Below, piece after piece: positions 6,173-52,316 of a stretch of DNA of 64,000 nt; the stretch's first letter is position 1; each line of letters opens with the position of its first letter. Source of the DNA: Branchiostoma floridae (Eukaryota; Chordata; Leptocardii; Amphioxiformes; Branchiostomatidae); the NCBI RefSeq assembly GCF_000003815.2, contig NC_049980.1, positions 31,903,779 through 31,967,778 on the forward strand, written 5' to 3'. Below the pieces are notes generated by a model, which did not search any database, was not told where the DNA came from, and saw only the letters and a program-made list of their open reading frames with translations. Made by a program: the position numbers and the translations under genes.

Positions 6173-8752
6173 TCATTTCTTATGTAAACCATGATAGAAC
6201 TTTCGCATCACATTCTCTGCGACTTGTCTCTCCTTCATGGCCCGTGTTAGAAGGTCCAGTCGAGTCAAACGATCATCCAGTCTTTCCGATGCCAGCATGT
6301 CATCCTCTATAAAACATTGTCATCGCGTGAGGGGGAGTAAAATAAACACCTACACAATTACATCACAAGTAGGAATCATAGATAGTGCTACCGATTTTAT
6401 TTCGCACAAATGTGCATTTTATGATATGGACACACAAGGATAAGCAAAAATAAAATAAACAAGGATAAGCGTCTTTGCCACCTTGGTGCTGTGCTAGGTT
6501 ATCAAGGTTTATTTCAAATTCTTGCCGAAGGCTGCTTACAAGTAACAGTAAAAAGACTAACAGACAATGACAAACAATGTAACATTTGACTAATCTAGTC
6601 TTAATGCCGACTTAAGATTTTAACGTGCTTGAGTGAACTTGTTTTGAAACAGTAGAAGCCGAAATGGCTTACGTTTTTCTGTTAAGTGTGTGCTCTATGA
6701 TGTTAAGAGGGGAGTGACTTTCTTTTTTTTCTGTGCATGTGGAAAACAGAATGAAATTTGCCGCAATCTTAAATGATCCCAAAGTTATAAATAAGTCATC
6801 TTACCCCGACCTGCAGAGTTTGCCAGGCCAATGAAGTTAGCAAGCCTCCTCCACAACTCGTCCAGAATCTCCCTATGTTCCGGAGGCGGCGTGAACCCTC
6901 TCATGACCACAAGTGCGTCATTGATGATGGCCACCAGGATGTTGATGATGATGATGAAGACGATGCACAGGTAGGCGTACAGGAACATGGGCCCGATAAT
7001 TCTACTGGTGCTTAGGATTTCATCAAAATTGAAAGTCCCCAGTGCACAGACGAAGAGACTCTTTCCTGATGCGGCAATCGTTGAGTATTCCTATAAAACG
7101 CATTTCACACATCAAGCGTCTTGCGACCGTCCTCCATTGATCAAAGCAAAGGTTACCTTATTTCAAATACTGATGACATTGTTCCACTTTCATCTATGTG
7201 CTTCATGCAGCTTTTTTATCTATTTGTTTTTTGTCATAATGCTTCGTACAGGAAAATGATATGGATTTCTAAGTTAACCCTAGGACATCCTGCCCTTATT
7301 CTGGTACAAATGTACTGACGTTAGAGCATTTTATAGATTGGTAAGGGATTAAGACATGTGGCCAGTGTCACTGATGATAGAAAATAATCTTCCAAAGAAA
7401 CCAGAAACAATAAACCGGCCACACCTGTATTTTCAGTCCGAACACCAAGTGTCCCAGCTGCACGAATGACATAAACAGGAGGGTGAAATAGAAGGCAAAG
7501 GCAGCAACCTCTGGTAACATGCGCCGCAGTGACGTCATGAAGACAGACATGAGCGGGTTGAAGCGAAGGAGGCGAAGAAACTTTAAGATGTTGATGAAGG
7601 CGACGGTGGCCACTGTCCAAACAAACGCCTGGTTCCAGAAGGAAGCAAGATCGAAGCTGATGAACTTCGACGAGTCTAAATTAAGGAGTAAGAAAAAAGA
7701 ATGGCATCATGAAATGTACTATACTTTTAGTCAACTATAACTACTTTTAGTTAACGTTTCTACAAGCTGAACAGTCTTCTTTACACAACCCTCTTTTATT
7801 CTTATGCAGACGTTTTAACCAGATGTCGTCTTCATCGGTGCATAATGAACAGTTTTTATCGATGATAAGTAAAGTTGTAAACATCTGCAGAGGAATAAAA
7901 GAGGGTTGTAAACAAAAGAAGACTATGTTCAATTACTGTATTTTGCCAACCTGATGAACTATTGATATGGATTTTTTTAATTCTGTCTCACGTCGTTCAC
8001 CTAGATGTTTGATGCCATATGATAAATCTTCGAAGCAAATCAATCATAGAGGTTGTTACCATGGTGATAAAATAGCTTGTCCAGAGTTCTCCTCGATGTA
8101 ATGTAGTCGACGGCAAACACGATAAATGCGCTGAAAGAAACCAGGATGTTGACAATCTCCAGAAGGTTCCACGGTTGTTGGTAGTACATTTTCCCCTGTT
8201 CCTTCATCATTTTTGCTTCCCTGTATAGCATGTACAGGAAACACGCCACGTAAAGGATGTGCAGAGCCAGGATTATATACCCAGCTGGGCCCACGAACCG
8301 ATGAAAGCGGTAGGTCCGGATAGAGCGTGACGACACCGCCCCTCCCATGTTGAGGAACTCCACCGTGTACGACATCGTGCTGAAGAAGTTGATGTTGGCG
8401 TTATAAACTGTGAACTCCACGACGACAGCGCGTGTATAGCGGTCAATCCAGTCGGCTTCCTTCAGGTCAGCGATGTCAGCGAGGGCGGCATCTTTGTTCC
8501 TGCCTACTCCGGCAACATAACCTCCCGAGCCGTACGTGGCAATGTCTGCCATCACGGGTAGCTCGCCACCAGAGTCGGGGATCTGGTAGGTCCAGGGGGA
8601 TTGCTCAGGGACATCTTCGGACAAATTGGAGGAGGAGAGGAGTCTCCATCCGGGCAAAAAGTCTCGCGTTTCCCCGTCTGAGAAGGAGTTCCCGCTGTTG
8701 CATTCCTGGTTCAAGAACAGGCTGGTGTAGCGCTGGTGAAAGCCACAGGATC
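6173..8752 (-). CDS. Polycystin exons 45-48: polycystin domain, channel and coiled-coil tail
   Basis: Exons 8060-8752, 7425-7675, 6805-7090 and 6173-6306. Polycystin (TOP) domain: DLKEADWIDRYTRAVVVEFT, YNANINFFSTMSYTVEFLNM. Channel: S1 GYIILALHILYVACFLYMLY, S2 PWNLLEIVNILVSFSAFIVF, S4 FINILKFLRLLRFNPLMSVF, S5 PEVAAFAFYFTLLFMSFVQL, pore region SLFVCALGTFNFDEI, S6 GPMFLYAYLCIVFIIIINIL. The S4 has only scattered basic residues as in the family. The filter position reads LGT rather than the LGD of PKD2. The short last exon encodes LASERLDDRLTRLDLLTRAM...KFYHGLHKK and stop, a heptad-like coiled coil that in the family mediates partner assembly. Confidence 0.88.
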
Positions 8753-11700
8753 CTTTGGAGTAGATGGAAGAAACAACATGTATTCACTTATCTACGCTTG
8801 AAGCAAGCAAGACAGCATGGGATGAGCTGCATGACTACCATGGATCCTCCTATATGAAAAATGAGGACTTTGTAGTTGTTGTGTTTTGTGTCTGTTTCAA
8901 TGGTCAGCTTTGGTTTCTCAACTTTTGTTTTAGAGAAACAACGCAGCTTATTAAAAAAAGATGTATATTAATTTTGTACTGATGGACTGAAAATCCCATG
9001 CATCCATCATACCTTTATCATGTTCTATCCTATTTAGAAGAACATAGGACATAAAGTCTTACGGCGTTTTACTCGTATCTGCTTGAAGCGTGCAGCTCCG
9101 ATCCTGTAAGAAGCGGTGTCACTGATGAAACGCTTCCGTCTCCAACCGAGTTTATCACCGTTGTAATGTCGTTCCTGGAATAGACCCGGAACAAGGACAT
9201 CGCGCGCCCACGACCAATAGTCATCCGCCGTTTGGATCTGTGAATGCAGAGGTGAACTTTTACGTCCGAAAAACATTTGCAAAGACACCTATTAAAGGAG
9301 GTTACAGTGGGTGGGTCACCAGGGATGTCAAGCATTAGCCTGCGCAGCAAGTCGGCAAAACTACTATCAATGGAGGACAAGCTTAAAGTAGCGAACGCAA
9401 GGCCTCAAGTACTGCCTTAAGCGAGTAGAGATGAAAAGGTCAGCCAGGCAGGGATAAGGCAGAGAGAAAGTGGGCAGTGAGAAGCAGGCTGAAACACAAA
9501 GATATTTTCGGGGTAATATACCCAGGGAAGGAGAGGGTTTGGGGAAGGCAGTCAGAGCTGGGGCAAAGCTGGTCCAAGGGGAAGAAAAAAAAAAGATCTA
9601 TAAAGATGTTTAAGACAGCGGGAGGAAGAAAACCGGACGGCTCGGGCAGTAAGCCCGGGGGTCGAAAGAGGAAGGGTAATGTGGAACTAACTCAGATGCT
9701 GTCGGAACGATCAGTCTCCTGGGAGGACAGAATAGAAGAGGCACATGAAAAGAAATCGCAGAAGTACCAGGAACTAGTGACTAATGCAGCTAGCAGGGGA
9801 TCCTCTGTATGATGTTAGTGTATGTGACTCGTGCAAATACATGTTAAGGCATTGCATAAACAATATTTTATTGCTTAAAAAGCTTTTAAAAGGGAATCAA
9901 ACCTGATCAAAATCCGTTTGAAAGAGGCCCCCTATCGTGTTGTACGCGTGGTGAGAGTAGACGTTTGTACCGCCATTGGCCACAAATAGCAGAATCACCA
10001 CGAACAGGAAGAAACTGATAACCTCTTGTATCACATTGTCTGTGCTCTTTCTTGTCTCTTCTCTTTTCTTCTGCTCTCTCGAAGATTTATCCGCTTGGTG
10101 ATGTTTCCAGAGAACTTTCTGCAATTGCTGTTTAGCCACTGGTGAAAAGGAGAAATATACATGGATTTTCGCCAGAGCCATCAATTTTCACATTCACTTT
10201 ATAATTGATTTGAAAGTACATTTACATAAAATATATCACTTTACAAGATTGAACCCTTATCAAGTAATCATTTTTGTAAATGGTGATGGCGTAATTGGTC
10301 GTTATGGCAGCTTCTCAACAAGCAGGCAGTTCTGAAGCCGTTCTTTATCATTTGCAACATCTATCATATTGGTAGATATAAAAATAGTTCGTATATCTTC
10401 AGTGGCAATCAGTAGACTATGTCCCGCCAGGACTTGGCACTCACGGATTCCAATACTACAAAGTGCTGCAAACCTCTCATGGTCGCACGGTGAGATATCC
10501 AGGCAAACAGGCCGCCTTCTGACGGACTGGAATCCTCCACGTCAACGTGTTGTCTGACGTGGTCATCCCGAGTCGATACCACCGCGGATTTCTTGAAGAC
10601 AAAGGACACCAGGGCAGAGACAGCCAGTATCTGCGGGGGCAGAAGAATGATAGGTGAGCATGTGGAGTCTTCCTTAGAGATTCTGACTGGAGTACTTTTT
10701 ATCGCCGCAATATGAGTCGATGTAGGTGGCGCTTTTGCGGCGAGAACACAATTCCAAAGGTCGCTAAGTTTGTATCGTCCCTCGCCACGGTTCATCAGTG
10801 CCGGGTTGACTCTCGAAAAAAATTACCTTCATCGGCTACATGGAGCGGCGAGAAGCACTCCAGTCAGAAGCTCTGAGGGCGATATCTGATATGTATCGAA
10901 AAGTCAGCAGGTGAGAGGGAAAACTCATATTTTAAACTCATTTGTTAAAGAAAACTCATATTTTCTACCAACCTGACGATGCTATTTTCGGAATAAATGA
11001 TTGTTGTGATGACATTAGTCATGAACATCAGGGAACTCTTACCTTGACTGGCTCAACTACAAAGACATCTTGCACGAAGGACATCAAGAATGTCTTCAGC
11101 CATGCGTTTGCCGTCTCAGGTCCCCACTCCAGGCTGTAGAGAATGGTGAAAAACGCCGATACACCGCAGATGAGGACCAGGACTGACCAGGCCACGTACA
11201 CAAATCCATGGGGAAGAAATTGGGAGGACGATTGAGTTTTCAAAAGCAAAGCCCTGATGTTTCTTTTCTCTGCGACATGCACGGGATTCTTGGTCGGTTG
11301 TTTCTTTTCTTTGTACCATTTGAAGAGCTGGATGAGGAGCACGTTTACTGGGAGGACATACAATGACGTCATCGTGCTGACGTACAACTCGTGAAGGGTG
11401 AAGGAAACTATCCCAAGATTCACCACTGTCGGTTGGTGCAAGCTGTCTTCCGTTCTGTACCACATGGCGTTGGCAATCATGGTGGTGTAGATGATACACA
11501 GTCCACAGGAGAGACGTTGAACCCTGCTGAAATGGCTTCCCCTGGGGCAGAACAAGGTGGAGAGCCAGATGTGCTCATTTCTAAAATCGCCGGCTGCCTT
11601 TGTAGTGAAAAGGTGAAAGGACGACAGATCTTGTTCTGTTGAAGCAGGAAGAATCCGGTTCGTTCTACCGTCCCCGTGGTCCAGTGAGAGCCACTGGCTA

Positions 11701-14700
11701 CACAGAAAACTGGTTCTGTAAGACAAAACAAAGATGGTAAGTAAAAACATACAATTCAAGAAACCAATACAACCTGGTCTATGTGGACAGGTGGTAACTA
11801 TAGACAGGATCCTAAATGCTTGTGGTCACTTAGTCAGCTTTCAGTTGTACTAACTTGATATGGGATAGTTTTATGCTTAACATATAAACATGCGATATGG
11901 TCATCAAATGTTTAGAATTTGTGAATGCAAGTGGTAACTTACGATAGTTTAATGGGCATTCTGTCTGATTGCATGACTTATAGTACTCACGTATCTCCTG
12001 ACTGCAGATCTCTTACGATGACTTTATCTAGCTTCCAGGCCCTGTCGTCGCCGCCCTGGTTGTCGTGCCAGATCTGAAGTCTTTGAAGATCACCAAGACT
12101 TTCTTCTACAGCCATCAAGAAGATATCCACGCCACCAGCCTGAAAGGTCTAAAATGGATGATTGTAAAACGGGTTAGTTTTAAAAAGCTTATGGACTTAT
12201 GTCAGTCCTCTGATGTCATTGGGTTTTGCTGTTATTAACGAATTGCTTAATTATCATATTCTGCGTGGTCAATAACAAAGTATGTCAATCAACAAATAAA
12301 TCCTAGGTCTAGGTTCAGCCAAAGTAACGCTCAATGAAGCAACTTAAGGATTTACTGAATCCTTACACCCGGGTCTTGCTTGAACACCCTAACTCCAGTA
12401 CTCCCTTTGTCACCAAACAATGAGAAGGCCACGTTGGACTTAGTTCCAGATCCTCGGCCATGACTGGTGTATACTGTCATCTTGTAATAATATGTGTCCG
12501 TGGAGCGGTTGTCTGGTAGGCTATGGACAATCAACTGCCAAAGAAAAGACAACTATTTAGCAGGATAAAATCGTCCGTTAGCACACGTCTACTATTGCAA
12601 TAGATTACACCCGTGGGTACATCAACAGCAGGCTTCGAGGATCAGATCACTTTACTTCGATGATTGACTAATATTTCCATGTGTGTTTTACATGCTGTTT
12701 CCTTTCGTTTCAGGTGACTAAGAAACTGTAGATTTGTTGGATGAAATTGTAATACTACAAGAAGTATATCATTTGTCTCATTTAGAAGAGGCAACAATGT
12801 TTTCTTACCTTCTTCGTCCCGACTTTGTCAAATTTCCTTAAAAACATGACCACGACAAAGTACAGAGTCAAAGTCGTCAGCACGGTGGCGAGGACCCCTG
12901 CGTTGTTCCCTATGTCCGAGAACTTGTCAAACACGGTGGTCAGGTCAATCGTGTTTGGCGCGGTGACAAAGCCAGCCCCGAATGCTGTCATGTGATTACA
13001 GGCGCAGACAGTCTCGGTGACTGTGGAGGTCGGATGTACCTGTCGAGACGACATAGATGTTATGGAAAAGTTAAGAATTTCTCCGACCCGAATTTTAAAC
13101 AAGTTCTAACGAATTCTTCAGGCCATGTTAACTGAGGTCCCGATTGCTCAGCAGTCGTTAGCTTCACATGAGTGTAAGGAAATAAACGTCTTCCTGCTGA
13201 CGCACAAGTACTTGTGTCCTGCTTTCCTTTATTTCAGAACACCCTTTATGCCACGACTTGACAGTTACAGCCAGTGCGGATGTCTAGTTACCCAGCAGCT
13301 GTTACGAAGTATAGGTAAGTGCAGCAGAACTCACACACGTGTTCAAATTACTAGATTACAAAAGCATTCGAACTCATGACCGGATTAGGTGGGAGTAGCG
13401 ACGAAACTGACACAAATAACCATGGTTAATAGATCTTACTCTACATCCGTTGGGAAGCCAGCTCTCTGTGTCCTCCGCCCAATAACGACAGCTCAGACGC
13501 AGCACCTTCAGGCTGTAGAACTGGGTTCCATTCAGGCCGGACTGGTCAGCAGGGTCCACAAGAAGTACGCCGTCATCGACTGCATCTTGGTAGACATCGT
13601 CAATACCTAGATAGACGTTAAAATTTGAATGTCATAAAGATATGTACATGTACATTCAAGCCTGTAATAGTAATTACCTATTATATAACTGCCACTATTC
13701 TCCCTCGTTTATGGATCACTGTGTTCCACTCTGACCTGTTCCTACTCGCTTTGCCATCCTGTCGGTCACTTTGACAAATTTCAGCTGATCTTACCTATCT
13801 ACCAGCTCAGCTTATTTTGAATTACGTTGTACAAAGTAGGGGTTGTTCTTACCAGCAACCTGTACTCCGACAGAATACTTTCCGGTATGATTCTTTCCCG
13901 ACACGAAAAACACGACAGACCTAGACTCAGGAGCGCCATGATGGGAGGCAGTCGGTTTCCAGTCTTGCCAGGTCAAACATACTTCACAGTTTTTACTATG
14001 GGCCAAGCCTCCTCCTCTGCCGAACACGGATATTTTGGAACTCCTGTTCAGCGCAGTGACTTGGACGACGAAAGCATCATCTACGTCTGAGATGTTGAAC
14101 GCATGGTGCACCACGCTCCCATTGCCGATGGAATCTACTTCATGAACCAGTCCGCTGGAAGAGTCCGCTCCATTAGTGGCGATGGTGATCAGGATATCCT
14201 CTTCTGTGTCTGTTATTTCCCCGGGGGAAAAGCTCGATGGTATCAGAGAGATGTCGTAGGCACCAGAGTTGATGATGTGTGAGTTGTTTCCCCACGTGAA
14301 AGGGTTGTCATGGTAACAGATGAGCTGGAGACAAAGCAAGATGCATTCAATATGAACATATAAGGAAATCGTTTACGTAGTACAGACGATTGCAAGAGTG
14401 TTCAATGTCTTATCGAATACGAGGGAAAGTCTATAAACTGTAAGCCTTCCATCAATATCTACCACATGGCACTTTGTTGTCGTCATATTTTGCCCTTCTG
14501 AACATCAGTATACGGTGGCTTCCCCAAGGGAAGGGGTAGAAAGTAAATATAAGTATTTGGAAACACATAATGATACTATTTGTTACCTATCATATTGCAG
14601 TAAGTTCTCCATACACACAAGACAAGTGTGGGACGTGCTCAGTGTTCAATGTCAGAAGAAGTTTCCACGCACCTTAGCGTGAATATACCTGGGCTGAAAC

Positions 14701-16125
14701 CCTTTAAACAGTTTGTCAGCAGAGGGAAAGGCAATGTTCACGCCTGTGTCGTTTAATCGATCATCTGTCAGACCCTCTCCATGGATTTTCTGGACTTGAA
14801 GACAGAGGCTGTCGGTGTCGATGCGTATTGCTGGGCCACCTGGCGTCAACTCTCTTCTCAGACGGTCCGCCATAACGTTCAGGGTCCTCCGTCCGCGTGC
14901 GACAACGGCTCGTTTCTGTAGACCACATCAGACATTGATAATGTTGAACATCATGACTAGCAATTTTCATCGCGGTAGTTCATCTTCAACTATTCTACAA
15001 AATACATAAAAGAGGAAGTCCACTGGAAACGAAAACGGCATACTCCTCGTGATGGAAGGTGCAACATTACGGCAAACGAATAGGAAATCGATTATACCAT
15101 TTGGTCACGTTCTTCTTCCTTTCGCCGCCTTAAATCTTGTCTCTCCTCAGGTGACAGAACGTAATCATTTGTCGCAGAATCGTCCTGACCAAGTGCTTCA
15201 TGGAAGACATGTCCAACGGATCGTAACATGTCTGAATCACAATTAAATCAGGTTAGGGCACAAGGCTGTATACAAGACTGGATACTAAGGTTTTTGCTTT
15301 GCTGGAAAAACGGACAAGCCAGATCTCTACCATAAAAAAAATATTATGACGTACATTCTTCAATACAGGACAGAAAACCGATTAAATCTTTAAAAAGTGC
15401 ATATTGGACCAGGATATCATCTTACCTGTAGTGATGCGCCTCACGTCGTCCGTCGCCACTACTTTTCTCGCAAGATCATCGTTCAGGTTGTCCAGAACAG
15501 TGAGGTAGGCAAGCTTTAGATGCAAATAGTAGGATTGAGAAAAACTATATTCATATACAATTGTCGCACAATAAAGTTCTTATTCTATAACAACCGAAGA
15601 AAAATTGCTTTTCTATACACATACATCAGCGAAACATACCTTTCCCGGATTTACTGAAATATCTTCCCATAGTCGCCTAGCCTATAGTGACGAGTGTTAA
15701 CGCCAACGCTAAGGATTGTAGCTACTCGTGGGTAGGCAAAGAGGTTGTTATCCATTGTGTTTAGGGCCCAACCCTCTCCTTCCACACACCGCCTTTTATC
15801 CCAGCCTCTACCCAGCCGAAGTGAGGTACCCATTTTACACCTGGTTGAAGCAAAATAGTTTAAAGTGTCTTTCCCAAGGACACAAAATCGTTTGTATGGC
15901 AGGATTCGAACCCGGGATCGTGCAGTTATGCCACACGACCTCAAAGCTACCCATTGATCGACAAAAACGAACCTTTTCTTCCAATGACTTGTCTTTACAC
16001 GCTTTGATGACAGATTCACATAACTGGGCAAGAACGCTGACAGCATTTGTGGTCCTCAAACGCTCAGATGCTATCTTCAGTCTTTCCAAGGCACGTTTGC
16101 AGCTCTGATGCACATAAACACACAC

Positions 16126-16187
<62 letters not shown>

Positions 16188-34015: not shown

Positions 34016-34061
<46 letters not shown>

Positions 34062-37000
34062 ATTTGCAAGTATTTTGTGTATGACAGGAGCTTAACTCAC
34101 CACAGCGCCGTGACCCCGTTGCGTGTGGTCGTGTAAGTGGTCCTGTCCAGGTTAGGAGTGTACTTCCTGACGGTCACGGCTCCTCCCAGCTCGTCTCTGA
34201 TCCAGCCGTGATGAACAGCCGCTTTACAGACGGACGAGTTCTAAAGCGTGTAGGAGAAATAGTTTAAGACCATTGGACAATTACCGTGTAGGTGTAGGTT
34301 AATGTGTAATGTTTGGACATTAGAATTATTAGTGTAAACGATACGTTGAACTCAACATGTTGATATATTCAAATACTAGTAGCTGCTTGTTTTAATGACG
34401 TCATCGGCCAAAATCCAAGATGGCGAACCATAGCACTATATCTAGTAAAACTAGCGTATTTTCCCTTGAAACTGCTAGTTATTTTTTAAATCCAAAAACG
34501 TTGTTAGTCTATTTTTGATGTATTTTGCGATTGTGTGCTGATTCGCCTTTTTGTAAATTCAATTTGGCGGACCAAAGATGGTGCACCCCAACTGTATATT
34601 ATATGTGTATGGCGTCGTTTTATGACGCGCCGTACATCTCGTACTTACCGCGCTGTACATCCCGTCACCATAGATTGTTCCTGCAACAGACGCACAGCCG
34701 GGAGGACAGACGATACTGAAAAACAACATTTCATTTCCTTAATAACTGACCACAGTAGACAGAGGGATACATATACTGTTCGCTAAGGCTGGTAACCATA
34801 TCGTCGTGAGCTCGCTGCCATCGCTGCGGTGCTAGGAGTGTTGCCCGCCCGCCAAATTTAATAGTGCACGCCGGGGAAGTTTTAGGGAGTTAGCCTCCAA
34901 TACTTTGTTCCACCGGGCGGTGATAACTCGAACACCCGGCTGGAAAGAAAAGCTGGCAGCACAAACAGACCTATGGCTATGCTTAGCAGACTGGGTCCGA
35001 AAAACACCCCTAGCTGACCCGTGGAAGACGGTGACCAGCCTAGGTGTTTGCGAAACATCATGTGCGGCTGTGAAAAGCCACGATCACCGTTGCTATATAT
35101 TCAACCACATTCAGCTTCTATCATCTCCATGGTTTCGCTTTTGATTTACGAAAAGTGATGAAATTAAAGAAATTTTAATTGATGTGGTAGCACCCTATGC
35201 TATTGACGACGTATGTACTATGTGTGTACTGCTAAAATCAACACTCTCTTTGCATATCCAATTACAAAGCTTACGTTTCATGGTCCGGTTACACTGTTGT
35301 TCATCTGCTGAGTTCGGTCCACTGGGTACAGTAATTTGGAGTAACACTATAGTATGGGTCTCAGCTGCTGATTTCGCCATAAATTGCCCTCAAAATTAAT
35401 TTCCAAGAAGATCCAACGGACCAACTGGATATTGTTTTTCTCCTTTGACACTGCCAAGCCTCCGGTAAATCTGCTCGAGGATTACTCCATCGTAAACTAC
35501 CAGCGTGGCGTCGTGTGTGACGTAACTAGTAGAGCGTATCGGCTCGGAATCTATAGGTCCCGAGTTCGATCCCCGCCGTGCCCCGATGTTGTGCCCTTGG
35601 GAAAGACACTTCACACGACCTCCCTTACTTCACCCAGGTGTAAAAATGGGTACCTAGCTCCGTTAAGGGAGGTAAATGGAAAGACTACCTTTACCTTCTG
35701 CCTGTACTGTGTATGTGGAACTGTTAATTTAAGTTACAAACTTGAGTGCAGTGCCACATTGTCATTGTCTGTCCAAACAAAAACAAAAAAATACCAGCAG
35801 CCTACTCACGTGAACACGGACACCCTGCTGGTCAATGACAGAGTAGCGGTGGCGTTGCAAACTATGAAAAAAAGTAAGAAAAGACGAACATCATACATCC
35901 GTGAATAGTTTCATCATGTACCCTGCAGTACAATGTGAATCAGTCAAAATTGCCCTGAAGAAGGTGTCAGACGGATCGCAATCCCTATCCTAACATAAAG
36001 ATTTAGACATACCTTCGTCGTCGCTATACGGCCAGGGGTGAGCTTAAAAGTAGAAGAACACTTAGTTATATTCGATTCTTATTAACATGAGATGAAAAGA
36101 ATGTTGTCAATGTCGGAACTATAGACTATTATTTGTATAATGAGAATAGATTGTTATCAGTATCAGAAGAATAGTTTATCATCAATATCAGAATAACATA
36201 TAGATTATCAACATCAGAATTTATCGTTATCAATATCAAAAGAATGGATTGTTATCGAGTAGAATAAGAATCGCCATGAATGGAAGTAAAAAAAAATGAC
36301 ACGTGTGTAAATACTGAATGGCAAGAAATGAAACACAATTCGTATGGGTTAACTGCAGTGTTGACACAACAAACGCCATGAAACTCACGCCTCTTGAAGT
36401 ACAGATCAGCCCCTGGGAAGTTGCCGGGTGCCGGACATGCTTGTTTGAGCGTACATGAGCTGGCGGAGTCGCCTGGCACGTGCACAAACGCCCCGCACGA
36501 TCCTGACACCGTGCAGAGGTGCGCACAGGTCGCCAGGTTCGTGTTCCCATGGGAACTAATGTCGTACAGCCCGCCGAGACAGGCGTGGTCTTCTCTCCGT
36601 ATGTAACCTTGTGTAGGGTCTGGAAGGAAATATGGAAGGACCCGCTTAAGTTTCTTTGGGTCATCATCCTTACATTTACCACTGTCGTTAGAAGCGAGGA
36701 GTTGAACCTGTACATACTAGTCTACACAAGTCATTGTAGATGTACGTCGATGAAGGTTAGACATCCAGGTAATCGACAGTTACTGAAGCAACTGGATATG
36801 ATTTTTTAAACGGTCAGACGTTTCAGATAGCATCCACTACCGGGTACTAACTTTCAAATGGGATTACGCTAATGAAGGAGGTGACCTCCTTTGTATATTC
36901 ATTCATAGTTACGGTATAAATCTTGAACGGATCTGCTCAGTGTCACTGACGAAATGTAGTAGAGGCTGCCAGGAAGAAACGTCTGACCGTTCCAAATCAT

Positions 37001-40000: not shown

Positions 40001-42424
40001 GAACATTAGGACTTGGGTGGTTGAATTTGATGTCCCATTTGAAATTGATGTCACGGTATTGTTTTCTTCATGCACGTATGCGCACAGTCGAAGTGTTTTG
40101 AATTTCGCGCCGTATAAAGAGTACGGCAGCCATCGTCAACTTCCGCGCTTTGGAATGTCGATGCGGACGTGAGGGTTAAAGGCAACCTAAGCAATATTAG
40201 AGTGAGAATATAAAAGTGGAAATATTCTGGATGATGCAATCTGTATAAGAATGGATATCTACTGCACTATATTCCCACATTTACATCATTATGTCATTAT
40301 GAGCAGTTAATTCAAAACGGAACAAAATCAAGCCAAGCTAGGATTCCCTAAATATGGTAACCCACAAAAATTAGACTTCACTACATCCAAGCGCGACGTG
40401 CACTGTGGCAATAAATATTTGCTCACTGAATGTTGGTATGGAATGGAATATATAGAGTTGCTTCATCTTATTACGCAGAAAAGTGCCCCAAAAATTTCCT
40501 TTGATAATTCAAGTTCTACAACCCTGGCTCGGGCTAAATATTGCTTGTGTTGCCGACGACCTTACTGAGGTAAACTACGTGTACCGATGTTGTCTGGTGC
40601 TCATTTTCCGCCGATAACCTGTCTGGTTCGTATGTGATTAAGCCCGACATAAGTGCTAGAAACTGGGCAAGCACAAAGCCAAAGGGAGACGGGGCACCGC
40701 CCTAGGGTATTGTGTGCGCATTAAGACTTGGGTGGTTGAATTTTGATTTGATGTACCAGCAAAAAACATACCGTGCAGATACTTGTAATATGTGCCAACT
40801 CCGATATTGAAAAACAAGGTGTACATGAGTATACTTTCATATTAGGCAGGCTGTAAAATGAAAGTAACGCAGATTTAAAACATGCAGATGTCAGTTACTG
40901 GCGCATCAAACGAATAGGACAGCGATTAAAAAAAAACTCGTATTTAACACGGTATACCAGTAGAGATATTTGAATATTACTTTTTGATAGTATGTTCCAA
41001 ATATTCTGATACGCGTAATTCACTATACAAAAGGACATCATCTTATATACATTGATTTTAGTACATAATGACATGTGACAACCCCTGCATGGTATATACG
41101 GGAAAATGTATTAAAGAATGTCAAGACGCTAGAAATTACTCCAATATATAGGCTATATATGTCCTTATAATTATGGAACCGTAGTTATGTACCGGTGGAC
41201 GCCATACTTTATATACAATGTACAATATTGTTGTGCAATAAAGTTATTATGATCTGACAATTGTCGAAAACATGGCAACGCGGAGGAGACATGATGAAAC
41301 AGGCACAAACACGTACACCTGGTCCATACGATTCAGTGCACAAAATTGTGCGCGGAAGGCAAAACCCGTGGGGCTTACTTCAAAATGCTGTATTTCCTGT
41401 TGCCCCAGAAAAACCTGCGGACCCAAGCCTTTTTTTAAGGTGGGCGGTGGAGTCATCTGGTTTCCAGTTCTCCCATACTGCATACATCTCTGCTCTGTGA
41501 ATCTTGGTTTGATAATTATGGGTTTATTTGTACCTATGATTTGATGTCTCTGTCCGATGATTGTCTGTTCTGTTACCCAATGACTTCGTACCTATGATCT
41601 TTGTTAAAGGCCCCTTTACACGAGGGCAAGAATGAGCCAGACTGCCGTCTGAATGAAAGTTCTTTCCTATTCCTGGGAATTCGTAGTGTATTCAAAATTT
41701 CAAGAAATTTTCACTGCATTCCAGATCTTTGTGCCCGTTCTTTTGGCTGGCCCAAAAGTTTTTGACTTGCTCAAAACTTTCGAGGTGCATGTGAAGTTGA
41801 GAAATATCGAATGACATTCAAAGTGTTAATTCTTACTGCAGTCTGACCGCATTCTACGGCATTCCATTACCATTATTCGACACATTCTGATCTCATTCGA
41901 TGGAGAACCGAAAGGCATGCAAGCCACTTCAAATCCTGCTAGATTGTGGCCAAAAGAATATCTTGAATGCAGTGAAAATGTGTAGAATGCACAACAAATT
42001 TAAATACCCAGCAATAGAAAAAAATAATAGTTATTCTGACGGTATTTCGGCTCATCCCTTGTCGTGTGATGGGGACAGAAGGATTATCTGGAATTCCCGC
42101 CCGATTGTCTCACATTGTGATTCCGGCTGCAGCTGGTTCTGCTTTATTCCTGCTAATTTGTTTTCAGTGTAAGTCCCTATTAGTTGTACCTCTGTTCTCT
42201 TATGGTGTATCTTGTATGTGTCGCTATTCCCGAGTTTTATAAGCCCATGCAGGCTGGGCCCATTAAGCGTTAGACACGTAAATAATTTTTCATTCCTTCA
42301 TTCATACGTGTAGGGATGCTTTCTACTCACTGGTAGAGGGAAGTAGCGTCCGCTCTCCAGAAGGACGTCCAAAACAAACCGGCAACAGAACCAAGATGCC
42401 AACGGATCGGGAAAACCACCACAT
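6173..42424 (-). CDS. Giant mosaic polycystin-1-family receptor/channel (48 coding exons)
   Basis: One gene, read from a signal-peptide exon at 42424 down to a stop at 6173. All 48 exons I placed have plausible splice signals (mostly GT-AG) and join without phase conflict; total 9504 nt, 3167 residues. Architecture: signal peptide, PAN-like, LCCL, CUB, C-type lectin, F5/8C, Link, trefoil, FTP lectin, F5/8C-like, PAN, ricin-B-like, unassigned beta module, FN3 x2, linker, GAIN/GPS, TM1, PLAT, TM2-5, polycystin domain, six-TM channel, coiled-coil tail. By family knowledge such proteins are autoproteolysed at the GPS and act at cilia or cell surface, often with a PKD2-type partner. PKD repeats, LRR, WSC and REJ modules of vertebrate PKD1 were not recognised. 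Uncertain points: the gap at 31971-32343 could hide an exon, and the acceptor of the exon near 17798 is a choice. No one-to-one vertebrate orthologue is claimed; ligand unknown. Confidence 0.85.
9063..11610 (-). CDS. Polycystin exons 41-44: transmembrane helices 2-6 region
   Basis: Rest of exon 11043-11715 plus 10489-10630, 9903-10138 and 9063-9237. Hydrophobic helices: FSRVQRLSCGLCIIYTTMIA, LYVLPVNVLLIQLFKW, FVYVAWSVLVLICGVSAFFT, ILAVSALVSFVFK and VISFFLFVVILLFVANGG; loops are basic or charged (KEKKQPTKNP, SSREQKKREETRKSTD). The last exon carries DDYWSWARDVLVPGLF, the start of the polycystin extracellular domain. This layout is that of polycystin-1 proteins (11 TMs). Phases 0, 1, 0 and 1 are consistent. 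Confidence 0.8.
9309..9812 (+). mobile_element. Decayed non-LTR retrotransposon (LINE) ORF remnant
   Basis: In an intron of the polycystin gene, on the opposite strand. Three-frame reading gives GMSSISLRSKSAKLLSMEDK, SRDEKVSQAGI, then RSRLKHKDIFGVIYPGKE and, from 9603, ELTQMLSERSVSWEDRIEEA, KKSQKYQELVTNA. These resemble the C-terminal region of LINE reverse transcriptase proteins found in amphioxus and other aquatic animals. Frames are broken; function lost. Identification is from remembered motif style only. Confidence 0.4.
11610..12534 (-). CDS. Polycystin exons 39-41 (start): PLAT/LH2 domain
   Basis: Exons 12367-12534, 11991-12142 and the first ~100 nt of 11043-11715. Encoded: YYYKMTVYTSHGRGSGTKSN, VAFSLFGDKGSTGVRVFKQD, GGVDIFLMAVEESLGDLQRL, QIWHDNQGGDDRAWKLDKVI, then FLCSQWLSLDHGDGRTNRIL. 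Y.V.V.TG...GSGT.S.V...L.G..G.......... F......LG.L....IWHDN.G....W.L..V.V.D...G....F....WL..D.GDG is the PLAT domain. It sits in the first intracellular loop in polycystin-1 proteins and binds lipids or regulates trafficking. Confidence 0.9.
12809..17798 (-). CDS. Polycystin exons 30-38: GAIN domain, GPS cleavage motif and first TM
   Basis: Exons 17632-17798, 17008-17130, 15973-16104, 15426-15513, 15098-15231, 14673-14915, 13853-14324, 13440-13606, 12809-13039. The first five encode helix-rich sequence (ADPVALVEALARTMQ, SCKRALERLKIASERLRTTN, LAYLTVLDNLNDDLARKVVA, DMLRSVGHVFHEALG) as in GAIN subdomain A; later exons are beta-rich. The GPS reads WLPNGCRV...ETVCACNHMTAFGAGF, with W, the paired cysteines and the HM-T cleavage tripeptide all present, so autoproteolysis is predicted. 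TM1 follows (AGVLATVLTTLTLYFVVVMF). The acceptor at 17798 (GCTAG|CG) is chosen for phase; GATAAAG|GCA at 17829 is an alternative but breaks phase. REJ not recognised in this stretch. Confidence 0.75.
15640..15968 (-). mobile_element. tRNA-derived SINE (minus strand)
   Basis: On the minus strand a tRNA-like head ends with a B-box GGGTTCGAATCC followed by TTGGGAAAGACACTTTA and GGTGTAAAATGGGTACC. The same body (CTTGGGAAAGACACTT, GTGTAAAAATGGGTACCT) appears in the SINE at 35505-35750. It begins within a few bases of the donor of polycystin exon 15973-16104, so nearly all of that intron's start is SINE. Confidence 0.65.
16126..16187. repeat. (TA)n(TG)n microsatellite
   Basis: TATATA run followed by about 22 GT units, immediately upstream (on the gene strand) of polycystin exon 15973-16104. 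Confidence 0.9.
16826..16920 (-). pseudogene. Partial tandem copy of a polycystin exon (pseudo-exon)
   Basis: A ~90 bp block nearly identical to 16997-17090, offset by about 171 bp. It keeps the donor (CAGCCG|GTAAGC) and codes AIDIVDVNNIAAADPVALVE-like sequence, but the 5' part of the real exon, including its TTTTTAG acceptor, is not duplicated and no alternative AG lies close upstream. It is therefore probably not spliced in. Few differences, so recent. Confidence 0.55.
17325..17575 (-). repeat. Dispersed T-rich-headed repeat, copy 1
   Basis: About 240 bp similar (roughly 80 percent by eye) to 20815-21055. Shared blocks: GCAAC(G/A)GTACATTACAC, CACAAGCTGATTACAT, TCTACAAATAACATTA. A T-rich stretch at the left end suggests an antisense retroposon tail (SINE or LINE 3' end). 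Family not identified. Confidence 0.45.
18072..19276 (-). CDS. Polycystin exons 27-29: Ser/Thr-rich and acidic linker
   Basis: Three phase 1-1 exons: 19217-19276 (GTATEEQTLISTSVSSTEST), 18736-18810 (NTTSVPTRARSTTENMPDTT) and 18072-18227 (GNQESDLDTDVLSEDGFGGF ... SDVGSSSSDDAD). The first two look like an O-glycosylated stalk; the third is strongly acidic. All three are frame-neutral cassettes, so alternative inclusion would change stalk length without disrupting the frame. Splice sites: CACAG|GA..ACCA|GTAAGT, CTAG|AT..GAAG|GTAAAA, CCCAG|GC..GATG|GTTGGT. Confidence 0.6.
19679..21441 (-). CDS. Polycystin exons 25-26: two fibronectin type III domains
   Basis: Each FN3 is one phase 1-1 exon. 21178-21441: VWIQNLTVSMVTEESFYVTW ... 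MGYQVTYHLMG ... LRGLLPGVEYNVSARAIT. 19679-19948: DSPRDFRAVTVTDRSATLVW ... FLLELIPV ... LTGLAPLQPYVAKLYAVG. The core W, the Y/L of the C strand, and 'L.GL.P...Y...... A' are the FN3 signature. FN3 domains occur next to GAIN domains in several adhesion receptors. A TIR element and a T-rich dispersed repeat occupy the 1.2 kb intron between them. Confidence 0.85.
20241..20640. mobile_element. TIR element (MITE-like) with ~100-bp inverted ends
   Basis: Left end TATTCAAATACAATTCAATC..CTACAAGTGG..GACATCCATCACTCTTCTTC and right end GAAGAAGAGTGATGGATGTC..GAGATTGAATTGTATTTGAATA are inverted copies; the middle also pairs (GAACAATTCA / TGAATTGTTC). The first ~58 bp are tandemly duplicated at the left edge (20241-20298 and 20299-20343). 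No coding content. A second copy, split by another repeat, is at 60078-61705. Confidence 0.65.
20815..21055 (-). repeat. Dispersed T-rich-headed repeat, copy 2
   Basis: Second copy of the repeat at 17325-17575, in the intron between the two FN3 exons. Confidence 0.45.
21739..22317 (-). CDS. Polycystin exons 23-24: unassigned beta-rich module
   Basis: Exons 22257-22317 (VGPGTVSAHWNLSEYACET) and 21739-21923 (STVLVAQTNLRTSLTTSWNV...TNLGLEVPYLLEVYIMTQRS...). The 61-nt exon was found because the flanking phases (1 and 2) require an exon there; acceptor TTTTAGCAG|AA, donor ACAAG|GTAGGT. The sequence is beta-strand-like and lies just before two FN3 domains, so it may be a degenerate Ig/FN3-like domain. 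No family recognised. Confidence 0.55.
22571..22981 (-). CDS. Polycystin exon 22: ricin-B-lectin-like beta-trefoil
   Basis: A 411-nt phase 1-1 exon. The segment GPCLAHHPRYHWLHTAEGTL, RNGETSQCLELLPNNAIVTT, DCSPIRESIFFEV, and GREVCFDNIDGSIELVNC shows repeated 'W....G.L.n....CL......v...C' units spaced ~40 residues, as in ricin B-type trefoil lectins. A preceding CSCMYANSASRVP part is unassigned. Sugar-binding residues cannot be judged by eye. Domain assignment moderate; coding status strong (splice sites, phase, open frame). Confidence 0.6.
23179..23442 (-). CDS. Polycystin exon 21: PAN/apple domain
   Basis: One 264-nt phase 1-1 exon: FELIPALARFRQHIDRRSRM, NLSLADCAIRCLEEPTFFCQ, SFQYKAGIRHCEMFGWAAPK, DSSVSYFERNFE. 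S...C...C......C.SF.Y......C.......... ...YFER is a textbook PAN/apple module (hepatocyte growth factor, plasminogen). Mediates protein or carbohydrate binding. It resembles, but is more canonical than, the Cys-rich exon at the protein N-terminus. Confidence 0.8.
24523..25523 (-). CDS. Polycystin exons 19-20: second F5/8C-like galactose-binding domain
   Basis: Exons 25246-25523 and 24523-24697, joined in phase 0. Encoded pieces: NIGGINVAALSSGGQCVN, GIIDGQLTPRPGQLGWLSSQ, GSWVQLKFDGYYFINRAKIA, RTIRLTFDDGSYED, then VELRQREGSDQYDVTQ and VKMTVLTTYTASTSGFIEAQ. N.A..S......IIDG.......GW.S.....WVQL.F...Y.I....I......Q.......F.DGS matches the discoidin/galactose-binding-like superfamily, more diverged than the other F5/8C copy. 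Outer boundaries phase 1. Confidence 0.7.
25816..26578 (-). CDS. Polycystin exons 17-18: fucolectin (FTP) domain
   Basis: Exons 26423-26578 and 25816-26109. The first encodes NIALGKRTRQSTTLDANSHS...CVRTDNVTSP, the second DHWWYVDLDRQWAIDRVTVV, CGQDHSIAASQSELTIPCGG and MRGRYVGIRLTQLGEPRRLE. NIALGK.TRQS.T, WW.VDL.....I..V.V, CG.........(I.C)....GRYV.I...G....L...E.EVY are the hallmarks of the fucolectin/tachylectin-4/pentraxin-1 domain, an F5/8C relative that binds fucose. The exon boundaries are phase 1 outside and phase 1 inside. Confidence 0.85.
27089..27220 (-). CDS. Polycystin exon 16: P-type trefoil domain
   Basis: Single 132-nt phase 1-1 exon, acceptor TTGAAG|GA, donor AAACAG|GTCAGG. It encodes LGCSTPLVARQPCAWDDV, TPHECELHGCCWDPYPGYPA and CFRKT. 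The order C....R..C......EC..xGCC.D......CF with six cysteines is the trefoil (P-type) signature, seen in TFF peptides, zona pellucida proteins and sucrase-isomaltase, where it aids mucin/glycan association. The exon was found in a frame different from the longest open frame at this place, so it is easily missed; phases with both neighbours support it. Confidence 0.75.
27275..27595 (-). repeat. Dispersed ATGCAAAT-type repeat, 5' part
   Basis: On the minus strand it follows the 5' part of the copy at 60301-61585: AAAGGTTATGTTTT, ATAACTCGAGAAGCCTTGGAT, ATTTTTGAGTTGTAGATAGC, GTTTGGGCCCCCTAG. It stops before the octamer-rich half. Confidence 0.45.
27725..27925 (-). mobile_element. tRNA-derived SINE (minus strand)
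   Basis: Minus-strand reading gives GTGTGGCGCAACGGCAAGAG (A-box region) and GGTCCCGAGTTCGATACTC (B-box), a tRNA-like head. The acceptor stem does not close, so this is a SINE head and not a tRNA gene. Confidence 0.6.
27943..28330 (-). repeat. Dispersed ATGCAAAT-rich repeat, 3' half
   Basis: Minus-strand copy carrying paired octamers (ATTATGCAAATTA, TAATTTGCATAA) and the family's terminal motif CATGGAGATATTAGGTC..GAACTCTTGTTA. Confidence 0.5.
28433..28726 (-). CDS. Polycystin exon 15: Link (Xlink, hyaluronan-binding) domain
   Basis: A single phase 1-1 exon of 294 nt encoding one ~97-residue domain: GVFNMGPELSFPAARHHC, MASPSELRAAFEAGESIFRH, GWLTDQTHRYILER and VWCMQP. The V.F, A...C...... (M)A(S)P..L.AA.EAG....GWL.D...RY pattern is that of the Link module. 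In vertebrates Link modules bind hyaluronan. The usual second cysteine of the C-x-GWL segment is replaced (SIFRHGWL), so one disulfide may be missing. Its acceptor sits right against a TTCA microsatellite. Confidence 0.75.
28734..29020. repeat. (TGAA)n microsatellite, imperfect
   Basis: About 290 bp of TGAA/ATGA units with interruptions. On the gene's strand it reads (TTCA)n and runs directly into the Link exon acceptor TTTCAG at 28727-28732, supplying its pyrimidine-rich tract. Confidence 0.9.
29096..30150 (-). CDS. Polycystin exons 13-14: F5/8 type C (discoidin) domain
   Basis: Exons 29927-30150 and 29096-29255, joined in phase 0. The first encodes TVYADARPWVELDFGREIYL...YSLQTSTDGVVYNDHGN, the second VYQANTDPGTVVRTFIQPRV, SSRYLRVLPVAWFGRPALTL and GVLGCE. 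W.ELDFG, S.DG..Y......, V...F..P...RY.R..P..W.G.......V.GC is the standard discoidin pattern (galactose-binding-like fold; phospholipid, collagen or glycan ligands). Outer boundaries are phase 1. Confidence 0.8.
30293..31739 (-). CDS. Polycystin exons 10-12: C-type lectin-like domain
   Basis: Exons 31635-31739, 31263-31366 and 30293-30479. They encode HCPFGWRAWRDSCYYFGRSD..ACHNMA, AHVVEINSEAEQEIL...DKYWVGLRFS, and SNSWYNWWNQVPL...DTCVIMGRTAGFQW...ARVVCEIE. The C-P-x-G-W start, A-H-V-V-E-I-N-S-E-A-E-Q motif, YWVGL (WIGL-like) and the final C....VCE are diagnostic of the C-type lectin fold. The canonical EPN/QPD and WND calcium-sugar motifs are not evident, so sugar binding is not assured. CTLDs also occur in vertebrate PKD1 and PKD1L proteins. 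Bounded by phase-1 introns. Confidence 0.8.
31908..31946. repeat. Short palindrome beside an assembly gap
   Basis: TTGGATATGGCATC and GATGCCATATCCAA pair with an 11-base loop. The motif GGATATGGCATC also occurs at 26207-26220 with similar left flank, so it belongs to a dispersed repeat. The gap starts 25 bp later. Confidence 0.5.
31971..32343. other. Assembly gap (Ns)
   Basis: 373 Ns inside the polycystin gene between the CUB and C-type lectin exons; could hide a phase-1 cassette exon. Confidence 1.
32390..33379 (-). CDS. Polycystin exons 8-9: CUB domain
   Basis: Exons 33219-33379 and 32390-32555 join in phase 0. They encode GCDSVMTASSRSREFYSNSP, CKLHIIGNPGGMIAPKFKFS, then DELEVNSGPNKGYFVGKYTN and TGQYLWVTWNTTD. 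The pattern C...Y.SP....C.w.i...G.I.L.F..F.L......D.L.V..G....(G) is that of a CUB domain, an extracellular protein-binding beta-sandwich. The 3' exon ends 47 bp from an assembly gap (31971-32343), so a further exon may be lost there; the next visible exon is nevertheless phase-compatible. Confidence 0.7.
32922..33175 (+). mobile_element. tRNA-derived SINE (plus strand)
   Basis: Head GTCTCCGTAGCTCAACTGGTA (A-box) and CCTGGTTCAAATCCTGG (B-box), then a tRNA-unrelated body ending AAAGGAAACTTGTTGCCCT. Preceded by a poly-G run (32906-32920). The anticodon arm is disrupted by an insertion, so not a functional tRNA gene. Confidence 0.65.
33734..35861 (-). CDS. Polycystin exons 4-7: LCCL domain
   Basis: Four small exons: 35810-35861, 34649-34715, 34101-34240 and 33734-33774. 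Together they encode VCNATATLSL..., IVCPPGCASVAGTIYGDGMY, NSSVCKAAVHHGWIRDELGG...YTTTRNGVTALW and YNGRDGTSFYFLH. The CPxGC motif, the SSVCKAAVHHG core and the SFxF end are the hallmarks of an LCCL domain (cochlin/Limulus factor C), a ~100-residue fold implicated in lipopolysaccharide or matrix binding. Internal phases are 2, 0 and 2; outer boundaries are both phase 1. A tRNA-derived SINE (35505-35750) lies just 3' of the first of these exons. Confidence 0.8.
33944..34060. repeat. (CT)n tract
   Basis: Long pyrimidine-rich CT repeat in the intron inside the LCCL domain. Confidence 0.85.
35505..35750 (+). mobile_element. tRNA-derived SINE (plus strand)
   Basis: AACTAGTAGAGCGTATCGG (A-box region), CCCGAGTTCGATCCCCGCC (B-box), then CTTGGGAAAGACACTTC and GTGTAAAAATGGGTACCT. 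Same family as the element at 15640-15968, opposite orientation. Confidence 0.65.
36013..36619 (-). CDS. Polycystin exons 2-3: PAN/apple-like Cys-rich module plus microexon
   Basis: Exon 36389-36619 encodes a ~77-residue Cys-rich segment (HACLGGLYDIS, ATCAHLCTVSGSCGAFVHV, SSCTLKQACPAPGNF) whose C..C...C..F....C.L spacing resembles a PAN/apple domain, a protein- or carbohydrate-binding fold. Acceptor CTTCCAG|ACC, donor AGGC|GTGAGT. It is followed by a 30-nt microexon (36013-36042, PHPWPYSDDE) flanked by AAG|CT and GAAG|GTATG; both are phase 1-1, so the microexon can be skipped without changing frame. Confidence 0.6.
36785..37015. mobile_element. Foldback MITE-like element
   Basis: CTGGATATGATTTTTTAAACGG..CAGACGTTT on the left is matched by AAACGTCTGACCGTTCCAAATCATATCCAG on the right. 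About 230 bp, non-coding, in intron 1 of the polycystin gene. Confidence 0.6.
37120..37385 (-). repeat. Dispersed ATGCAAAT-type repeat, 5' part
   Basis: Minus strand starts TTACCTCCATGAAAAATGGAGG and continues with GTCTGTCTGTC, AGCATAACTTTAGAACC, GGTACTGCAGCAGAACTTC, as in the full-length copies. Confidence 0.5.
37648..38010 (+). mobile_element. 5'-truncated LINE: reverse transcriptase C-terminus and 3' UTR
   Basis: A frame ending at 37843 reads RGHNQRFHTLTCKTETYRAS, YFPRTVIEWNSLPEHLIHTT, SVEQFKAGVAKYYGYP and stop. The YFPRT..eWNSLP block followed by an F..x. tail is the conserved C-terminal end of many non-LTR retrotransposon proteins (CR1/L2-like). The following ~150 bp (ending ATTACGTAGATGTAGATAAG) is its likely 3' UTR. 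Opposite strand to the host gene, in intron 1. Confidence 0.65.
38500..39110. repeat. Intron-1 direct repeat, copy 1
   Basis: About 600 bp matching 40055-40175 plus 40580-41110 (about 85-90 percent by eye), with a long identical core around GTGCTAGAAACTGGGCAAGC and GGGGCACCGCCCTAGGGTAT. No coding content; family unidentified. Confidence 0.6.
39540..40010. mobile_element. Foldback element family, copy 1
   Basis: Left arm (CACACGAGAAGGAATGGGCC..CCGTCAGAATAACTACTCC) and right arm (GGAATAGTCGTTCTGACGGC..TCGTCTGAAAGG) are inverted and related. Similar structure at 41612-42140. Confidence 0.5.
40055..41110. repeat. Intron-1 direct repeat, copy 2, split by a MITE
   Basis: Second copy of 38500-39110. 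Between its halves lies 40178-40556, which begins GGCAACCTAAGCAATATTA and ends with the inverse form AATATTGCTTGTGTTGCC, matching the MITE at 54470-54850. So the MITE jumped into this repeat. Confidence 0.6.
41612..42140. mobile_element. Foldback element family, copy 2
   Basis: Left arm CCCCTTTACACGAGGGCAAG and right arm containing TTATTCTGACGGTATTTCGG and CTTGTCGTGTGATGGGGAC; interior arms pair around 41700-41960. Lies just 3' of the signal-peptide exon on the gene strand. Confidence 0.5.
42331..42424 (-). CDS. Polycystin exon 1: start codon and signal peptide
   Basis: ATG at 42424-42422 in a good context (A at -3). It encodes MWWFSRSVGILVLLPVCFG followed by RPSGERTLLPST, a typical signal peptide with a hydrophobic core and small residues before the likely cleavage point. 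Donor CTACCA|GTGAGT leaves phase 1, which exactly fits the first Cys-rich exon 5.7 kb downstream (36619). I chose it as first exon because it is the only signal-peptide-like exon upstream with matching phase. A non-coding 5' exon further up cannot be excluded. Confidence 0.7.
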
Positions 42425-49059: not shown

Positions 49060-49104
49060 CCAAAACTAAATGTAAACAGCGACAAGGACATCATCGCCCT
49101 TCAT

Positions 49105-50136: not shown

Positions 50137-50241
50137 GCATGTATAGCTTTGCACATTGATCCAGTTTTAGGCGTTTCATATCTATGTTACTTTGATAAAA
50201 CGTACATATCAATTTCTTAACATTATGCTTATCATTTGCAG

Positions 50242-52285: not shown

Positions 52286-52316
52286 TCGCTAGTCAATTAG
52301 ATGTCAACCTGACAGA

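Follow-up and report, generated by a model that had tools for sequence, protein, structure and literature searches.

A lectin-array gene of the polycystin-1 family in the lancelet Branchiostoma floridae

The window analysed here, a stretch of 64,000 nucleotides (C2:31903779-31967778) in the 513-Mb genome of Branchiostoma floridae, carries on its minus strand a predicted gene (W), which runs from an ATG at 42424 to a stop at 6173 and encodes a putative receptor with a polycystin-1-type body behind an array of lectin-like and related modules. The exon chain was curated by hand from paralogue-guided and relative-guided models, and the resulting comparative model comprises 49 exons with compatible phases, 3166 amino acids and a single terminal stop. 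GT-AG borders are found at 48 of 48 introns, and the same chain read in the two other frames, as a control, contains 131 and 141 stops. An initial annotation of this DNA had proposed 48 exons and 3167 residues over 6173..42424 on no stated strand; this was nearly exact. The chain is real and its frame is open, and every one of the exons proposed is on the minus strand. A gene finder based on codons and splice signals was abandoned as it over-predicted exons inside introns (65 and 72 exons), and a small exon of our earlier 51-exon model (26951-26895) was dropped because relatives join the trefoil domain directly to the FTP module. The least certain exons are exon 4 (52 bp) and exon 7 (41 bp), which had no paralogue match at E≤0.01 in any copy and are nevertheless covered by permissive alignments.

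The C-terminal part of W is built like a polycystin-1. The GPS (33.7 bits against a cut-off of 22.5; residues 2099-2137) precedes a first helix at residue 2165, which is followed by a PLAT/LH2 domain (56.2 bits; residues 2210-2320) and by matches to Polycystin_dom (123.8 bits) and PKD_channel (126.8 bits); of the GAIN domain, the GPS part alone was detected. In a motif alignment in which the GPS reads HMT or HLT, that of W reads NHM^T in conserved context, and the stalk behind it, TAFGAGF, resembles TAFGASLF of the polycystin-1 in PDB. Alignments with PDB entries matched polycystin-1 through the stalk and PLAT, and PKD2L1 through the TOP domain and pore. Behind the GPS, ten hydropathy peaks exceed 1.5; an eleventh should lie before residue 2409 but falls under the threshold. 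Neither a REJ domain nor PKD repeats gave a Pfam match in W at E≤1; according to the excerpted account of the family (PMC1934368; this and all other papers are cited here from excerpts), REJ is common in polycystin-1 proteins and not required, PKD1L3 being without it. The polycystin-1-type body proposed in the initial annotation is thus borne out, with GPS, PLAT, polycystin domain and channel all above the Pfam cut-off. Judged by GPS, PLAT, TOP domain and channel, W is a member of the polycystin-1 family, and its predicted ectodomain makes it a new variant.

In the ectodomain, LCCL, Lectin_C, F5_F8_type_C, Xlink, Trefoil, F5_F8_type_C_2, PAN_1 and fn3 scored above the Pfam cut-off. The complete order is PAN_4-like, LCCL, C-type lectin, F5/8C, Link, trefoil, F5_F8_type_C_2, DUF7402, PAN_1, Ricin_B and fn3, in which DUF7402 (26.8 against 27), Ricin_B (15.5 against 29) and PAN_4 (17.7 against 27) stay below it. 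The initial annotation had listed LCCL, C-type lectin, F5/8C, Link, trefoil, FTP, PAN, FN3, GPS, PLAT and channel, all of which hold at this level; the F5/8C-like and ricin-B-like modules that it also named are seen below the cut-off, and the PAN-like exon 2 was absent from its list. Its CUB module found no Pfam match in the W protein at E≤1, but in B. lanceolatum relatives P0016 and P0021 (numbers preceded by P are our labels for database proteins) CUB lies at the same place, directly before the C-type lectin domain, with 36.6 and 40.0 bits (cut-off 21.4). Exon 22, the ricin-like exon, was predicted to be all-beta with low confidence (mean predicted local distance difference test score, pLDDT, 48.6), and Foldseek matched it best to beta-trefoil lectins, with an E of 2.3e-3, a TM of 0.35 and no match at E≤0.001; it is a candidate beta-trefoil that structure prediction did not prove. 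The Link, trefoil, PAN and ricin-like modules each occupy one phase 1-1 exon, a class reported to shuffle in lancelets (excerpt of PMC4284660).

W is not alone in the genome. At least seven loci of this kind were found, six on C2 (W, A, B, C, D and one near 31.64 Mb) and one on C11, those near C2:31.64 Mb and on C11 being known from profile matches alone. At the protein level (E≤0.01), 44 of the 49 exons were matched in A, 46 in B, 42 in C and 31 in D, whose sequence was fetched in part; the matched exons follow the same order in all four copies (read with the earlier 51-exon model, in D also with the curated chain). Exons 13-15 are unmatched in C because 2500 N, an assembly gap, stand at the place of Link. 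According to the gene models, A carries an extra FTP plus C-type lectin domain (C2:32014356-32015574), and C a C-type lectin domain (C2:32153299-32153688), each between two FTP exons. Six of the seven loci, on two chromosomes, have LCCL first, then Link, trefoil and channel, all on a single strand, within 70 kb at five (W, A, D, C2:31.64 Mb and C11) and within 100 kb at six (with B); about 0.4 loci per module would be expected by chance in a 70-kb window. Genome-wide there are at least 158 exon-level PKD-channel matches, of which 150 were listed (150 of 400 candidates scored) and collapsed to 126 loci; at the remaining PKD loci among the matches listed, there was no Link match upstream within 100 kb.

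Relatives of W were also found in other lancelets. The B. belcheri and hybrid models P0001-P0006 are 76-80% identical to W over the aligned part from the GPS to the end; P0001 is nearly complete in architecture and the rest are partial. C-type lectin domains are inserted inside the FTP module in P0001, P0002, P0003 and P0005; B. belcheri P0002 has two, both with the WND motif and one with EPN, and EPN together with WND is found in inserted domains of P0002 and P0005. The B. lanceolatum proteins P0016, P0017 and P0021 (database names PKD1L3 and PKD2L1) are 40-52% identical over the aligned C-terminal part. P0016 and P0021 carry CUB, C-type lectin, F5/8C, Link, FTP, PAN and fn3, P0016 also trefoil and LCCL, and the B. 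lanceolatum relatives differ in having additional kringle, SUEL lectin or laminin-G-like domains. In a tree of the GPS-to-end part of 37 proteins (P0021 was too short for it), W, A, B and C form one group (support 100/98) with the belcheri-type set as its sister (100/99); the two together are supported at 100/100, as is their union with P0007, P0016 and P0017, the last two falling in the sister subfamily. Forks within the belcheri-type set are unresolved and many outside rows have long branches. It follows that expansion or homogenisation of the array took place separately in the two species. The database model of P0016 seems to be fused: its LCCL, CUB, lectin and Link come after the channel (one member's end and the next one's start).

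Both B. belcheri and B. lanceolatum models join LCCL, Link and trefoil modules to a polycystin. The initial annotation had called Link, trefoil, FTP, CUB and LCCL on a polycystin body an unfamiliar combination, and among the proteins returned by our searches that of LCCL, Link and trefoil was met solely in Branchiostoma. As candidates were limited by length and shared words, absence elsewhere here means absence among returned proteins. Most of the non-Branchiostoma relatives listed carry REJ or PKD repeats. The sole non-lancelet match of the ectodomain search was P0043 (Syngnathus, secretory phospholipase A2 receptor-like), and it was weak (E 5.8e-8, 9% of the query); like W, this fish protein has LCCL, Link, C-type lectin and F5/8C listed (also SUEL), but no polycystin part. 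F5/8C is listed on the sea anemone relative P0025, and REJ, F5/8C and FTP-like domains on P0036, a distant B. belcheri polycystin; F5/8C and FTP alone are therefore not peculiar to the lectin-array family, and other lancelet polycystins, too, bear lectin-type modules. The relatives are already present in public databases under automatic names, and the family is absent by title or abstract from the open-access literature searched, a scope outside which most subscription papers lie.

The initial annotation had allowed for the lectin-rich and the channel exons belonging to separate genes. We examined this on 14 Branchiostoma models (P0001-P0007, P0016, P0017, P0021 and P0039-P0042, with the REJ-bearing P0036 left out and P0017 judged by Pfam alone): lectin modules are joined to GPS, PLAT or channel in nine and four are channel-less. 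Ten of the 14 cross the junction between FN3 and GAIN; in nine of the ten, lectin-type modules precede the junction, while P0007, a B. floridae protein, begins at FN3 and continues to the channel. In W, all introns after intron 1 are shorter than 1.3 kb, introns 22-24 measure 217-333 bp and that between the ricin-like exon and the first FN3 exon 217 bp; introns of this size offer hardly any space for a boundary between two genes. No second signal peptide common to all five copies was found by a crude hydropathy screen. We are therefore confident that W is a single gene uniting a lectin array with a polycystin-1 architecture.

Several points weigh against this reading. The check for separate genes was made on gene models, not transcripts, and many lancelet domain combinations have been reported to be prediction errors, including a chordin-PKD_channel chimera (excerpts of PMC4967905 and PMC6071037). 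P0003 and P0016 look chimeric, and copy B, which spans 95 kb with ten runs of N, depends on the assembly for its continuity. The annotations of P0039-P0042 lack a channel and end before the FN3-GAIN junction, P0039 being 97% identical to the W ectodomain over 88% of it. Finally, an in-frame ATG with a hydrophobic stretch reads into the pre-GAIN exon 33 in copy B, and another into exon 36 in copy D, neither being present in the other copies. The candidate starts, the ectodomain-only models, the start of P0007 at FN3 and the false fusions known from lancelet annotation would all fit a pair of neighbouring genes, one for a secreted lectin array and the other for a polycystin, which we nevertheless consider improbable, as the same module order recurs at six loci on two chromosomes, the introns are short, the candidate starts are single-copy and nine of the 14 relatives join the two parts. 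Of two further hydrophobic readings, one, present in W, A, B and D (~16695-16620 in W), overlaps exon 32 in another frame and hits a stop, and the other is common to B and D alone; a second signal peptide ahead of the GAIN region is not accepted here, though it may exist.

Reading through exon 26 into intron 26 leads to a stop at precisely the place where P0039 and P0041 end, and the same read-through stop, two codons past the splice donor, is present in five of the five copies read (W and A-D). One gene might thus yield two products, the full receptor-channel and, by retention of intron 26, a secreted lectin-array protein; an AATAAA lies ~73 bp beyond the stop in W, and a soluble N-terminal fragment is an agonist in human polycystin-1 (excerpt of PMC7728438). 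However, the stop lies within the GTTAGA donor, and may owe its conservation to the splice site alone; the position of polyadenylation signals differs between copies (none in the B stretch, far off in D), and the automatic models may merely be cut short. A second product is accordingly a minority option to us, although well above that of two genes.

Ratios of nonsynonymous to synonymous differences (pN/pS), pooled over copies, were measured for 47 exons (exons 4 and 7 lie outside this set); 46 had a value below 1, the exception being exon 43 (1.08), and the lowest value was that of PLAT exon 41 (0.04). The least constrained ectodomain exon is Link, with a pooled value of 0.92 over three copies; among the three pairs of copies, W against A gave 1.73 (p=0.08) and the others 0.79 and 0.59, and in the absence of a significant excess we do not claim positive selection on it. 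The coding exons are under selection against amino-acid change. Tandem duplication and a few low-scoring splice sites (the exon 30, 34 and 49 acceptors and the exon 35 donor) might suggest a decaying or silent copy, yet no frame break was found, and together with pN/pS below 1 in all measured exons but one this makes decay highly improbable.

The whole of these results is best explained by one gene for a putative 11-pass receptor-channel subunit of polycystin-1 type that is ligand-gated, an explanation that we favour with some reserve. For its mechanism, a GAIN-cleaved, ligand-binding subunit gating a cation channel, analogy with the vertebrate proteins leaves us evenly divided between acceptance and doubt. 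The outer array would bind glycans or matrix on a cell, an egg coat, a microbe or a secretion, and the GAIN domain would cleave itself at NHM^T; when the outer fragment is moved or shed, the stalk TAFGAGF... would be freed, as has been reported of vertebrate polycystin-1, and with a PKD2-type partner would open a cation channel. Tandem copies with gained C-type lectin and FTP cassettes may then differ in ligand. Precedents are described in excerpts of two papers: an N-terminus bearing a C-type lectin activates the PC-1/PC-2 channel (PMC7728438), and stalk peptides activate polycystin-1 (PMC11458180).

Three features of W run counter to this proposal. EPN/QPD and WND, the motifs of calcium-dependent sugar binding in C-type lectins, are absent from the fixed C-type lectin domain in a motif scan, which found only WTT at residue 443. 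The Link exon, in spite of its Xlink score of 36.6 bits, has two cysteines, whereas the canonical Link module has four. Binding of hyaluronan or calcium-dependent binding of sugars by these two domains is therefore not assumed, and of the interpretation in the initial annotation, the polycystin body and the ectodomain combination stand, and the sensing of glycans or matrix and the ciliary place that it suggested are putative. The third feature is the filter, which reads LGT in place of the LGD of PKD2L1 (the acidic residue replaced by T). It would suit a receptor without a pore of its own, which would signal like a cleaved adhesion GPCR (G protein-coupled receptor) or help a PKD2-type channel, and polycystin-1 has been termed an atypical GPCR (excerpt of PMC11458180). 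Against this, S6 reads NILVAIIND, like PKD2L1 and with no basic residues, and the channel exons are constrained; a pore-less receptor seems to us possible, if distinctly less so than a channel subunit.

The vertebrate proteins PKD1, PKD1L1, PKD1L2, PKD1L3 and PKDREJ share with W the GPS, the PLAT after the first helix, the polycystin domain and the PKD channel, and vertebrate polycystin-1 also the stalk TAFGA; several members have a C-type lectin domain, as in W (excerpt of PMC1934368). W differs in giving no match to REJ or PKD repeats; in their stead it carries LCCL, Link, trefoil, FTP, CUB-like and PAN modules. The SpREJ proteins of sea urchins likewise belong to the polycystin-1 family, some with lectin domains and several with GPS, PLAT and channel, but they carry REJ and often PKD repeats, and no lectin array comparable to that of W is described in the same excerpt (PMC1934368). 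In the Ciona s-Themis-A, -B and -B2 proteins, which are chordate polycystin-1-like and have GPS and LH2/PLAT (with a channel in B and B2), a hypervariable region and REJ stand where W has its lectin array; their role in sperm self-recognition is demonstrated (excerpt of PMC9265791). If the analogy is stretched boldly, SpREJ (PMC1934368) and s-Themis (PMC9265791), both as excerpted, would suggest a role in gamete recognition for W. More broadly, the tandem lectin-array polycystins could be a Branchiostoma-specific recognition system (for egg coat, self/nonself or microbe) in which exon shuffling adds C-type lectin and FTP cassettes to copies or removes them, and in which each gene, by retention of one intron, yields a soluble lectin-array agonist besides the membrane receptor-channel. 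Such a system would be to cephalochordates what REJ is to sea urchins and s-Themis to ascidians; we offer it as speculation and think it unlikely.

W indicates how far a polycystin-1 ectodomain may be rebuilt by exon shuffling while the machine of cleavage, PLAT and channel stays constrained. A set of receptors this alike, with differences in individual lectin cassettes, would make the question of polycystin ectodomain ligands directly testable, possibly in a recognition sensor of an early chordate branch. At the level of gene models, this strange lancelet domain combination largely survives the check for gene-prediction error. The coordinates of all parts of W are given in Table 1.

Table 1. 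Parts of the W gene in the window, in the order of the protein.
Feature	Position	Strand	Evidence
Exon 1: start codon and signal-peptide-like sequence	42331..42424	-	sequence; counterparts in A, B and C
Exons 2-3: N-terminal PAN-like module	36013..36619	-	PAN_4 17.7 bits, below cut-off
Exons 4-7: LCCL domain	33734..35861	-	PF03815 54.6 bits; genome match C2:31937884
Exons 8-9: CUB-like module	32390..33379	-	no Pfam match here; CUB in P0016, P0021
Exons 10-12: C-type lectin-like domain; EPN/QPD and WND absent	30293..31739	-	PF00059 47.6 bits; motif scan
Exons 13-14: F5/8 type C domain	29096..30150	-	PF00754 59.2 bits
Exon 15: Link module with two cysteines (a phase 1-1 exon)	28433..28726	-	PF00193 36.6 bits
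Exon 16: trefoil domain, phase 1-1	27089..27220	-	PF00088 28.6 bits
Exons 17-18: FTP-like module (F5_F8_type_C_2)	25816..26578	-	PF22633 50.0 bits
Exons 19-20: F5/8C-like module (DUF7402)	24523..25523	-	PF24135 26.8 vs cut-off 27; 29.1 in P0002
Exon 21: PAN domain	23179..23442	-	PF00024 (PAN_1) 37.4 bits
Exon 22: ricin-B-like (beta-trefoil) module, unproven	22571..22981	-	PF00652 15.5 bits, below cut-off; low-confidence model
Exons 23-26: fibronectin type III modules	19679..22353	-	PF00041 59.7 bits, 2 stretches
In-frame TAG if intron 26 is retained	19674..19676	-	P0039, P0041 end there; 5/5 copies
Exons 27-35: linker rich in Ser/Thr and acidic residues, and pre-GAIN region	15098..19276	-	gene model, paralogue matches
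Exons 36-39: presumed GAIN region, GPS (CNHM^TAFGAG), first transmembrane (TM) helix	12809..14915	-	PF01825 33.7 bits; motif alignment; hydropathy
Exons 40-41 (into 42): PLAT domain	11991..12534	-	PF01477 56.2 bits; pN/pS 0.14 and 0.04
Exons 42-44: PLAT end and TM helices 2-6	9903..11715	-	gene model, Pfam, hydropathy
Exons 45-46: polycystin (TOP) domain and channel start	8060..9237	-	PF20519 123.8 bits
Exons 47-48: rest of channel: S4-like helix, pore loop (LGTF), S6 (NILVAIIND)	6805..7675	-	PF08016 126.8 bits; alignments
Exon 49: C-terminal tail and stop	6173..6306	-	first 37/43 residues matched in A-D

Outside W, the window holds three further stretches of coding appearance. An exon-like stretch on the minus strand (55520-55762) is 90% identical to part of B. 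belcheri P0003, apparently a Nudix-like piece, and is probably a piece of a neighbouring gene. An open frame on the same strand (1421-2503) is 75% identical to another part of P0003 and probably marks a further neighbouring gene, which B. belcheri has conserved. Several long open frames on the plus strand (49076-53028) bear a resemblance to a Helitron-type helicase and an endonuclease of a transposable element.

Elsewhere, the B. floridae genome shows a very large polycystin expansion. Outside the lectin-array family, one PKD-channel match is preceded on its own strand, at a distance of 29 kb, by an LCCL match (the pair at C2:16144704 and C2:16173536). Among the matches listed, six other PKD-channel loci (C10:1968227, C11:19344153, C13:20065603, C19:14519121, C7:11072289 and C7:17085670) have a trefoil upstream within 70 kb on the same strand, without Link or LCCL, where ~0.4 would be expected at random; these are possibly further trefoil-bearing polycystins.

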